A DNA stretch of 64,000 nucleotides from Asanoa sp. WMMD1127 (GTDB taxonomy: Bacteria; Actinomycetota; Actinomycetes; Mycobacteriales; Micromonosporaceae): positions 7,316,001 to 7,380,000 of the forward strand of contig NZ_JARUBP010000001.1 in assembly GCF_029626225.1 (NCBI RefSeq), in the 5' to 3' direction. Positions 17,287 through 20,324 of the stretch are shown here, in pieces (within the stretch, counting starts at the first letter, position 1; every line of letters starts with the position of its first letter). The notes under the pieces were generated by a model. That model had not been told where the DNA came from, did no database searches, and worked only from the letters and a program-made list of their open reading frames with translations. Made by a program: the position numbers and the translations under genes.

Positions 17287-20148
17287 TCAGACGACGACGC
17301 TGACCATCCGCCCCTTGACGACGATGACCTTCTTGGGCGCCTTGCCGTTCAGCGCCTCGGCCACCGAGGACAGCGCCGCCTCGCGAACGGAGTCCTCGCC
17401 GGCGTCGGCCGCCACGGACACCCGCCCACGGACCTTGCCGTTGACCTGGACCGGATACGTGACCTCCTCCGCCACCAGCAGCGACGGGTCCGCGACCGGG
17501 AAGTCCACATAGGCCAGCGACGAGGTGTGTCCCAGCCGCTGCCACAGCTCCTCGGCCACGTGCGGGGCGAACGGCGCCGTCATCAGCACCAGTGGCTCCA
17601 CGGCCTCGCGCGGGGGCGGCCCGCCCAGCGCCGTCAGGGCGTTGGTCAGCTCGATCAGCTTGGCCACGCCGGTGTTGAAGCGCAGCTCGTCCAGGTCGCC
17701 GCGGACCCCGTCGATGATGCGGTGCAGCACCCGCCGCGTGGCCTCGTCGGCCGGCGCCTCGCTGACCCGGGTCACGCCGGTCTCCTCGTCGACCACCAGG
17801 CGCCAGACCCGCTGCAGGAACCGCTGTGCGCCGATCACGGCGCGGGTCTCCCACGGACGGGACACGTCAAGCGGACCCATCGCCATCTCGTAGACCCGGA
17901 ACGTGTCGGCCCCGTAGGCCTCGCACATCTCGTCGGGCGTCACCACGTTCTTCAGCGACTTGCCCATCTTGCCGTACTCGCGCCGGACCTCGTCGCCCTC
18001 CCAGAACCAGCGGCCGTCGCGCTCCTCCACCTCCTCGGCGGGCACCACCATGCCGCGCTCGTCGCGGAACGCGTACGCCTGGATGTAGCCCTGGTTGAAC
18101 AGGCGGCGGTAGGGCTCGAACGACGAGACGTGGCCCAGGTCGAACAGGACCTTGTGCCAGAAGCGCGCGTACAGCAGGTGCAGGACGGCGTGCTCGACGC
18201 CGCCGACGTACAGGTCGACGCCGCCCGGGTCGCCGTCGTGCCGCGGGCCCATCCAGTAGGCCTCGTTCTCCGGGTCGACGGCCTGCTTGTCGTTGTGCGG
18301 GTCCAGATAGCGCAGCGAGTACCAGCACGAGCCGGCCCAGTTGGGCATCGTGTTGGTGTCGCGGACGTAGCGCTTGGGGCCGTCGCCCAGGTCCAGCTCG
18401 ACGTCGACCCACTCGCGGGCCCGGGACAGCGGGGTCTCCGGGTTGCTGTCGGCGTCGTCGGGGTCGAAGGTGCGCGGCGCGAAGTCGTCGACCTCGGGCA
18501 GCGAGACGGGCAGCATCGAGTCGGGCAGGGCGACCGGCATCCCGGTCTCGTCGTAGACGATCGGGAACGGCTCGCCCCAGTAGCGCTGCCGGCTGAACAG
18601 CCAGTCCCGCAGCCGGTAGGTGGTGGCGCCCTGGCCCGCGCCGTGCGCCTCCAGCCAGGCGATCATCGTCGCCTTGGCCTCGGTGACGCCCAGGCCGTCC
18701 AGCACCAGGCCGCGGTCGGGCGCGGCGGAGTTGATCGCCGGACCGTCCCCGGTGTACGCCTTGCCGTCGAAGCCGTCGGCCGGCCGCACCGTGCGGATGA
18801 TCGGCAGCTCGAAGACCTCCGCGAACTCCCAGTCGCGCTCGTCCTGGCCGGGCACCGCCATGATCGCGCCGGTGCCGTAGCCGGCCAGCACGTAGTCGGC
18901 GATGAACACCGGGACGCGGGCGCCGTTGACCGGGTTGACCGCGTAGGTGCCGGTGAAGACGCCGGTCTTGTCGCGCGCCTCGGCGGCCCGCTCGACCTCG
19001 GTCTTGCGGGCGGCCGCCCGGCGGTATTCGGCCACCGCGACGACCGGGGTCTCGTGCCCCCCGGTCCAGGCGTCGTGGGTGCCCTCGGGCCAGTGCGCCG
19101 CGGTCAGCGTGTCGACGATCGGGTGCTCCGGCGCGACCACCATGTAGGTGGCGCCGAACAGCGTGTCGGGCCGCGTGGTGAAGACGGTGATCTCACCCTC
19201 GGCGCCGGCCGCGGTCTCGAACGGGAAGTCGACGTGCGCGCCGGTGGAGCGGCCGATCCAGTTGCGCTGCATCAGCTTGACCGGCTCCGGCCAGTCCAGC
19301 ACGTCCAGGTCGTCGACCAGGCGATCGGCGTACGCGGTGATCCGCATCATCCACTGCTTCAGCCGCCGCTTGAACACCGGATAGTTGCCGCGCTCGCTGC
19401 GGCCGTCGGGCGTGACCTCCTCGTTGGCCAGCACGGTGCCCAGCCCGGGACACCAGTTGACCGGCGCCTCCGAGACGTACGCCAGCCGGTGCTCGTCCAG
19501 CAGCGCGCGGCGCTCGACCCCGGACAGCTCCGCCCACGGCTTGTCACCGGGCGTCGGCCGGGTGCCCGCGGCGTACTCGGCGATCAGGTCCTCGATCGGG
19601 CGCGCCTTGCCGGCGGCGGTGTCGTACCACGAGTTGAAGATCTGCAGGAAGATCCACTGGGTCCAGCGGAAGAACTCGGGCTCGCTGGTCGCGATCCGCC
19701 GGCGCTCGTCGTAGCCCATGCCCAGCCGGCGCAGCTGCGCCCAGAACCGGACCATGTTGCGCTCGGTGGTGATCCGCGGGTGGGTGCCGGTCTGCACGGC
19801 GTACTGCTCAGCGGGCAGGCCGAACGCGTCGAAGCCCATCGGGTGCAGCACGTTGAAGCCGGTCATCCGCTTGTAGCGGGTGAACACGTCGGTGCCGATG
19901 TAGCCCAGCGGGTGGCCGACGTGCAGCCCGTCGCCGGACGGGTACGGGAACATGTCGTGCACGTACATCTTCGGGGCGCCGGCGCGGGGGTGCTCCGGAT
20001 CGGCCAGCTCGCCGACGGGGTTGGGCGCGCGGAAGGTGCCGCGGGCCTCCCAGTAGTCCTGCCATTTGCGCTCGACGTCGCCGGCCAGCGCGGCCGTGTA
20101 TCGGAACGGGGGAACGTCCTGGTCGGGACGCTCGGCTGCCTCGCTCAT
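17287..20148 (-). CDS. leuS: leucyl-tRNA synthetase
   Basis: Class I synthetase charging tRNA-Leu. HIGH-type motif is [16 protein letters not shown] near residue 70. The large CP1 editing insertion follows (threonine-rich [20 protein letters not shown]). The KMSKS-type loop reads KMGKSLKN at about 728, and the anticodon-binding and C-terminal domains are complete. It has 953 residues, full length. ATG 20148 is preferred over GTG 20157, because GAGGTGG ahead of it overlaps the GTG. Expression is probably controlled by the leucine attenuator at 20225-20324. Confidence 0.95.
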
Positions 20149-20224
20149 CTTCGCCACCTCGGTATTTTCGTAGTCAGGGCCTGGGGTGCGTCCTTCGGGG
20201 TTGCGCTCACCGGAATGAGGGCAT

Positions 20225-20250
20225 AAAAAAGCCCCTCACGCAGGAGGGGT
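20225..20250 (-). terminator. attenuator terminator in the leuS leader
   Basis: Minus strand CCCCTC-CTGCGT-GAGGGG followed by C and six T residues: a textbook intrinsic terminator placed between the leader peptide and leuS, about 75 nt before the leuS start. A second perfect stem (AGCCGTGC with GCACGGCT, about 20252-20285) overlaps the leader stop codon and would be the ribosome-sensitive upstream hairpin. Confidence 0.88.
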
Positions 20251-20273
20251 AGCCGTGCCGTCGCGTCAGCGCG

Positions 20274-20312
20274 TCAGCACGGCTCGGTAAGGAGCAGGAA
20301 GGCCCTGGCCAT
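20274..20312 (-). CDS. leuL: leucine leader peptide of the leuS attenuator
   Basis: Twelve-codon ORF encoding MARAFLLLTEPC, with three consecutive Leu codons (CTG CTC CTT), ending just inside the first arm of the leader hairpin. Stalling at the Leu codons when charged tRNA-Leu is scarce should favour the antiterminator and raise leuS expression. The ATG lies 6 nt after a TACACT box, so the transcript appears leaderless, as is common for actinobacterial leader peptides. Confidence 0.85.
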   Translation of the reverse strand: MARAFLLLTEPC

Positions 20313-20318
20313 GGGGGC

Positions 20319-20324
20319 AGTGTA
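20319..20324 (-). promoter_or_regulatory. -10 element of the leuS attenuator transcript
   Basis: TACACT (TANNNT) on the minus strand, 6 nt before the leader-peptide ATG. No strong -35 is seen. The promoter abuts the 3' end of the upstream GPP34 gene. Confidence 0.6.

Follow-up and report, generated by a model that had tools for sequence, protein, structure and literature searches.

The leucyl-tRNA synthetase gene (leuS) of Asanoa sp. WMMD1127 is preceded by a short Leu-rich leader ORF and two adjoining hairpins. The arrangement is not due to chance; it is a known kind of element, met here in another family. In our reading, it represents within the Micromonosporaceae a leuS attenuator that is widespread among actinobacteria, in which the hairpin at the leader stop codon (H1) would oppose the intrinsic terminator (T) without a base-paired antiterminator, and we give this reading a probability of about one half. 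The features lie in the window, the whole stretch of 64,000 nt that was analysed, and their coordinates are collected in Table 1.

Table 1. Features of the leuS leader region in the window.
Feature	Position	Strand	Remarks
-10 box TACACT of the leader promoter	20319..20324	-	ATG 6 nt downstream
Leader peptide ORF MARAFLLLTEPC, 12 codons, ATG to TGA	20274..20312	-	Sequence and relatives
Three Leu control codons CTG CTC CTT	20289..20297	-	Last one (CTT) nearly invariant among leaders
H1, stop-codon hairpin AGCCGTGCTG...CGGCACGGCT	20251..20284; arms 20284-20275 and 20260-20251	-	Fold, covariation
T, intrinsic terminator hairpin CCCCTC-CTGCGT-GAGGGG	20232..20249	-	Begins 1-2 nt past H1
U-tract, six T (preceded by C)	20225..20230	-	Sequence
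ATGCCC 3' of the U-tract	20219..20224	-	Sequence; RTGYCC-like in many relatives, by eye
leuS, leucyl-tRNA synthetase	17287..20148	-	Probable start ATG 20148; mechanical ORF from GTG 20157

The sequence-only reading had described TACACT, 6 nt, a 12-codon ORF, a hairpin over its stop codon and a six-T terminator before leuS, and this is exactly what is read on the minus strand in the 100 nt from 20324 to 20225. The codons of MARAFLLLTEPC are ATG GCC AGG GCC TTC CTG CTC CTT ACC GAG CCG TGC TGA, with the ATG at 20312. Because this start codon is just 6 nt past the -10 box, a leaderless start is expected, and transcription would probably begin at or next to the A of the ATG. The likely leuS start, ATG 20148, is preceded by GAGGTGG as judged by eye. 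A fold of the 103-nt leader is more stable than 200 of 200 dinucleotide shuffles (z -3.85). No Rfam covariance model, whether of the T-box or of another family, matched the leader: at gathering score the sole match in the window was mraW RNA (RF01746; 11626-11728, minus strand, 57.4 bits), and a scan of nine related loci with E up to 1 gave one match, to a viral microRNA family, far below the cut-off.

Relatives were sought with the N-terminal 582 residues of LeuS as query, and the best 80 of 592 loci were taken. By title, 79 of these 80 are from genera of the Micromonosporaceae, and one is an 'Actinobacteria bacterium'; the closest LeuS among the best 80 of 592 are three from Asanoa, at 96% identity. 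The sequence-only reading had asked for an alignment across Micromonosporaceae, and it is partly supported. A leader with TAnnnT, an LL-containing peptide, H1 and T is present at 80/80 leuS loci (the best 80 of 592), H1 and T show compensatory changes, and the Leu codons have a fixed place and a bias. TAnnnT stands 6-7 nt ahead of the start codon (ATG or GTG) in 81/81 cases, the 80 relatives and the window, although the leader-finding script favored candidates having TAnnnT; every locus had one. This spacing leaves no room for a ribosome site, and the leader is probably leaderless, as had been proposed.

Some further sequences near the leader were noted by eye. In many relatives, an RTGYCC-like stretch comes after the U-tract, though it lies beyond the expected release point, and the terminator loop CTGYGY (20238-20243 in the window) is kept in several families beyond the needs of hairpin formation. 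In several Actinoplanes/Paractinoplanes, an 11-bp inverted repeat, ACCGGTCGCCG...CGGCGACCGGT, is upstream of and touches the leader -10 box (L062:2346-2375; also L043, L060, L063, L066, L071, L072, L075, and L079). It may be an operator, or possibly the terminator of the upstream gene.

The distribution of the element was followed in the class and in the phylum. The class search covered 394 genomes, of which 393 matched, and 109 upstream regions were taken (29 directly and 80 further). These were picked among the matches most like the LeuS of the window, and hence the regions of other families are no survey. A leader was parsed in 55 of the 109 regions. By family, all regions had one in f1 (2/2), f21 (19/19), f22 (21/21), f3 (2/2), f11 (2/2), f33 (1/1) and f46 (1/1), and part of them in f31 (3/5), f36 (3/6) and f42 (1/2). 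None was parsed in f2 (0/24), f29 (0/8), f20 (0/7), f15 (0/5), f4, f45, f47, or f48 (0/1 each). Among all the regions taken as negative, leader-like ORFs occur in L124, L141 and L150, and L166 and the region of L226 were matched by the later model. That covariance model, built from 39 leaders, matched 28 of 396 phylum genomes (E <= 0.01, strict filters). The match is beside leuS in 21 of the 28, four of which are outside the class, in one family, with LeuS only about 40% identical. In all, 136 leaders were collected and 135 parsed; the one left out, L056, has an H1 that did not fit the pattern, yet it pairs in the pairing check. The leaders of one family are not independent of each other.

The spacing of the parts is kept more strictly than their size. 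H1 spans 27-68 nt (s.d. 9.4), whereas the gap from H1 to T is 0-3 nt in 134/135 leaders. The gap was rechecked, since part of the class-search leaders had been collected with a pattern allowing at most 4 nt. It is 0-3 nt in 80/80 parsed leaders of the LeuS scan (window included), which were collected without a gap pattern, and a gap-blind parse of the 109 regions gave 58 leaders, with gaps of -1 to 5 nt in 57 and 11 nt in one. The last Leu codon starts 8 nt ahead of H1 in 134/135 leaders; in the gap-blind parse, where H1 may gain one pair, the distance is 8 nt in 39/58 and 7 nt in 19/58. The stop codon is ahead of H1 in 11/135 leaders and past the H1 5' arm in 10/135.

The pairing of H1 is canonical in 1248 of 1350 cells, with the register chosen for best pairing, and its pair 5 alternates between T-A (74) and C-G (58). 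In the covariation alignment (81 rows, 77 distinct), 17 cells of H1 and T changed on both sides compared to 6.2 in shuffles, with 0/500 shuffles as high. Seven of these changes are in H1 and 10 in the outer pair of T, which is unpaired in 26 rows. The covariation score of H1 and T is 0.070 against 0.055 in shuffles (0/500 as high) and two weaker measures were equalled by 41 and 16 of 500 shuffles, comparisons in which related rows may beat shuffles even without structure. In several species, L004, L005 and L009 among them, an early TAG stops the peptide after FLLLT, and CCGTGCTGA of the stem is retained in spite of it, which indicates that the sequence past the Leu codons is under constraint at the RNA level. 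The U-tract is weaker in f22.

As in classical attenuators, the amino-acid control codons are near the leader stop codon. The three successive Leu codons to which the sequence-only reading had drawn attention are there in the window but are not universal, being found in 68/82 parsed leaders of its family. The last Leu codon is CTT in 131/135 leaders and CTC in 4/135, and exactly two CTT/CTC codons are present in 127/135. In the leuS genes themselves, CTT accounts for 1 of 2479 Leu codons and CTG for 97.7% (500-codon segments from 80 genomes; the bias of leuS may exceed that of an average gene). CTT and CTC are read by one shared tRNA. The order of the control codons is CTG CTY CTT in leaders of the window's type and CTT CTG CTT in f21, and leuS leader L226 (G081) retains H1, T and CTT, but CTT is its single Leu codon. 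Biased control codons have precedents: rare codons in the leu leader and the selective charging of isoacceptors have been discussed (PMC1183508, in the portion accessible). A rival reason for the CTT bias is that the stretch has to stay free of G-C pairing.

The claim that all parts of a ribosome-mediated attenuator are present could not be upheld. No antiterminator was found by a test that was positive in trpL and thrL of E. coli and in a trpS leader of the Asanoa genome itself, so not all of the classical parts have been shown. In this test, a ribosome was represented by keeping 30 nt around the A site unpaired. When full-length leaders were folded, the family-average probability of T, P(T), was 0.87-0.99 in every ribosome state, the exceptions being the window leader (0.04) and L003 (0.56) with the ribosome at the start codons, and L022 (0.07) without ribosome. 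Since T wins all states in the E. coli controls too, full-length folding decides nothing, and therefore transcripts ending before the T 3' arm were used and the probability that the T 5' arm is paired upstream was taken as the measure. With the ribosome at Leu codon 2, this probability is at most 0.25 in 135/135 leaders (means: f1 0.00, f21 0.01, f22 0.00, others 0.04). Its mean is 0.07, 0.12, 0.21, and 0.26 in the same four groups with the ribosome at the last Leu codon, and 0.34, 0.23, 0.73, and 0.31 with the ribosome at the stop codon. In the window leader, the values are 0.00-0.08 in the stalled states and 0.13 at the stop. Whichever of three footprint sizes and three Leu positions is taken, at most 10/135 leaders exceed 0.5. 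Two leuS leaders found later behave differently: in L228 the probability is high whatever the state (0.80-0.98), and in L227 it is 0.57 with a stalled ribosome versus 0.26 at the stop.

Among the controls, the stalled and stop states are well apart in trpL (0.34-0.67 vs 0.06) and thrL (0.90 vs 0.05), weakly separated in leuL (0.41-0.54 vs 0.34) and not separated in hisL (0.64-0.68 vs 0.67). The separation is 1.00 versus 0.07 in the trpS leader of the same genome. The latter (L205), MRISARLGWWRP, is a Trp leader that also looks leaderless, its TAnnnT being 6 nt ahead of the ATG, and it has a textbook antiterminator signature; the trpS copy that it precedes is at 7666763-7667716, minus strand, in the Asanoa genome (G000:C1). 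When leaderless leaders were sought at four loci of that genome (trpE, ilvB, and two trpS), this was the only one found.

Individual candidates for an antiterminator in the leuS leaders were also tried and rejected. Extension of the H1 foot into T by base pairing is possible in just 3/135 leaders. Pairing of the H1 loop with T is not above shuffles, or weakly so in f1 and f22. As a general antiterminator, a helix of the Leu codons with the T 3' arm fails because its covariation is that of shuffles; it does win in the window leader if coverage is limited to the start codons. In the folding model, then, no antiterminator exclusive of T is predicted upon a control-codon stall, pseudoknots lying outside what such folds cover. 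The classical wiring is either absent or hidden from plain folding, which is blind to pseudoknots and proteins.

How H1 could work without such a helix is suggested by the states of the ribosome. The transcript would begin at the leader ATG, and a ribosome would load at its 5' end. With ample leucyl-tRNA the ribosome would reach the stop codon and, because the stop codon is within the H1 5' arm in most members, would melt H1, allowing T to form and transcription to terminate ahead of leuS. With leucyl-tRNA scarce, above all the isoacceptor for CTT/CTC, the ribosome would wait on the Leu codons and H1 would be able to fold. In f1, the computed probability of H1 drops as the ribosome advances, from 0.95 (start) through 0.85 (Leu codon 2) and 0.45 (last Leu codon) to 0.01 (stop). 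For a shortage of leucine to increase LeuS, H1 would have to act against T. We propose a steric effect, because H1 hardly competes for the bases of T and the distance from H1 to T is evolutionarily kept: a helix touching the foot of T might be unable to follow T into the RNA exit channel. Read-through into leuS is predicted to rise under leucine limitation.

Several results do not fit easily with opposition of T by H1. Abutting 'V-shaped' hairpins are, as far as the accessible text of the study goes, about as effective terminators as single ones (PMC8355165), which argues against it. If the ribosome sits on the last Leu codon, the conserved CTT, the lower 4 bp of H1, which abut T, are masked (P 0.00); a ribosome on codon 2 leaves them free. 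Upstream pairing of the T 5' arm is more frequent with the ribosome at the stop codon (0.23-0.73, depending on the family) than with a stalled one, and this difference, if real, would act in the wrong direction. In the window leader with the ribosome at the start codons, P(T) is 0.04, as the Leu codons then pair with the T 3' arm. The leaders whose stop codon is ahead of H1 (11/135) or past its 5' arm (10/135) also count against the reading, as does L226 with its single Leu codon.

The element could instead be a true attenuator with an antiterminator invisible to plain folding, such as a pseudoknot, an H1-loop contact, or an effect of a protein or of NusG/NusA, which we consider unlikely. A model is available in Corynebacterium ilvB-II, where the right shoulder of the terminator is proposed to pair with the P1 loop region (PMC10272879, from the part of the paper available), and the T loop is conserved beyond need. 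Complementarity of the H1 loop weakly exceeds that of shuffles in f22, toward the T 3' arm (mean z -1.10), and in both f1 (-0.88) and f22 (-0.90) toward the T loop plus 3' arm. However, it is not above shuffles to the T 3' arm in f1 (+0.45), f21 (-0.05), or the others (-0.15), and to the T 5' arm in no group. Also, the H1 loops vary widely in both length and sequence.

Quite improbable is a classical trp-type attenuator with a long-range antiterminator helix formed by the Leu codons GCTCCTTAC and the T 3' arm GTGAGGGGC. This helix is within the minimum-energy fold of the window leader plus downstream sequence. If nothing but the start codons is covered, it prevails in the window leader (5.7 expected pairs, P(T) 0.04) and by half in L003 (2.6 pairs, P(T) 0.56), and 88.4% of the cells in 77 distinct rows are able to pair. 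But the helix works in the wrong direction, because a ribosome on the Leu codons covers that very strand. Its covariation equals that of shuffles (111-179/500 as high), the expected pairs with the start codons covered average 0.4 in f1 and 0.0 in f21 and f22, and complementarity measured against shuffled Leu segments has mean z of -0.91 in f1, -1.87 in f22, -0.19 in f21 and -0.77 in the others. It is very doubtful that H1 and T form a composite V-shaped terminator, more or less constitutive on leuS and either just tuned by the leader peptide or weakened when, with leucine plentiful, the peptide melts H1: tandem hairpins are a known terminator form (PMC8355165, in its accessible part) and the family-average P(T) is 0.87-0.99 in all ribosome states, but the sign is wrong for a synthetase gene, and the fixed Leu codons, the extreme CTT bias and the fixed distance to H1 are left unexplained.

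The sequence-only reading had held that control of leuS by attenuation is much less commonly described, a weak claim in view of the Streptomyces cases. In 2005, Seliverstov et al. predicted classical attenuators before leuS in Streptomyces avermitilis and S. coelicolor (PMC1262725); in 2021, LeuL2-leuS of S. lividans TK24, with the peptide MRAVRLLLSEPR, a hairpin and a uridine stretch, was reported as leaderless (PMC8079986), so far as the available parts of the two papers tell. The exact LeuL2 peptide is encoded by 14/19 parsed f21 leaders, which makes the element of the window the same thing in another family. The Streptomyces attenuators, as they appear in the accessible text, share with it a short Leu-rich leader ORF directly upstream of leuS, a hairpin and a U-tract terminator in between, and the H1-T layout of f21 is that of the window. 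They differ in that the 2005 paper, in its available part, has an antiterminator hairpin (PMC1262725), whereas f21 yielded no fold here that competes with T. As to such a hairpin, H1 is present and covaries, but only in 3/135 leaders is its foot able to claim a base of T, and the search for another fold in competition with T gave none.

The trp, thr, leu, and his leaders of E. coli resemble the leuS leaders in having control codons near the leader stop codon, hairpins and a U-tract terminator, and the stop codon is 25-65 nt from T compared to 27 nt in the window leader. The E. coli leaders have ribosome sites. They differ from the leuS leaders in the antiterminator signature, which is clear in trpL and thrL and weak in leuL, with the two states not separated in hisL, and of which the leuS leaders show none. 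Our literature search found no paper joining leuS, a leader peptide and Micromonospora. Attenuation of synthetase operons was reportedly treated by Lopatovskaya and colleagues in 2010, and more leuS cases are possible. In the accessible part of a Term-seq study of S. clavuligerus, neither leuL nor leucine is mentioned (PMC8269248).

The likeness extends to ilvB. The Corynebacterium ilvB-II leader has a two-hairpin layout, uORF-P1 and P2-terminator, with a proposed antiterminator (PMC10272879, so far as its available part goes). It and the ilvB leaders found here have in common with the leuS leaders a uORF with a hairpin followed by a terminator, and branched-chain codons. It differs in its place before ilvB, in its mixed Ile/Leu/Val codons and in the antiterminator proposed between the terminator and the P1 loop, a contact whose counterpart with the H1 loop finds at most weak support in the leuS leaders, in one or two families.

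In the seven genomes where the covariance model did not match beside leuS, its eight matches are upstream of ilvB (L229-L236; families f49, f55, and f98). Control codons such as CTC GTA CTT ATT ACC stop are followed in these leaders by a hairpin adjoining the terminator. Seven of the eight have GTA and CTT and then an Ile codon (or CTT ATT); L233, which looks AT-rich, has GTT CTC CTT. H1 is at or just past the stop codon in all eight and the gap to T is -1 to 4 nt, in a search limited to helices whose end is at most 16 nt from T. Rfam matched none of the five ilvB loci scanned (L231, L232, L233, L234, and L236). A tentative and rather unlikely generalization would be that Actinobacteria possess an attenuator without antiterminator, serving leuS and ilvB, in which a stop-codon hairpin 0-3 nt before T is the switch and sterically blocks the completion of T. 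It would apply to a ribosome waiting on rare-codon control positions, and for leuS to several families, also outside the class.

The results expose a gap, in that the hallmark of textbook attenuation was not found in the members examined, while the distance between hairpin and terminator and the rare codon are kept. The classical-looking trpS attenuator in the same genome provides an internal control for how such switches work. The leuS attenuator of Streptomyces is not peculiar to a few genomes; in many actinobacteria it is conserved as the control of a synthetase gene.
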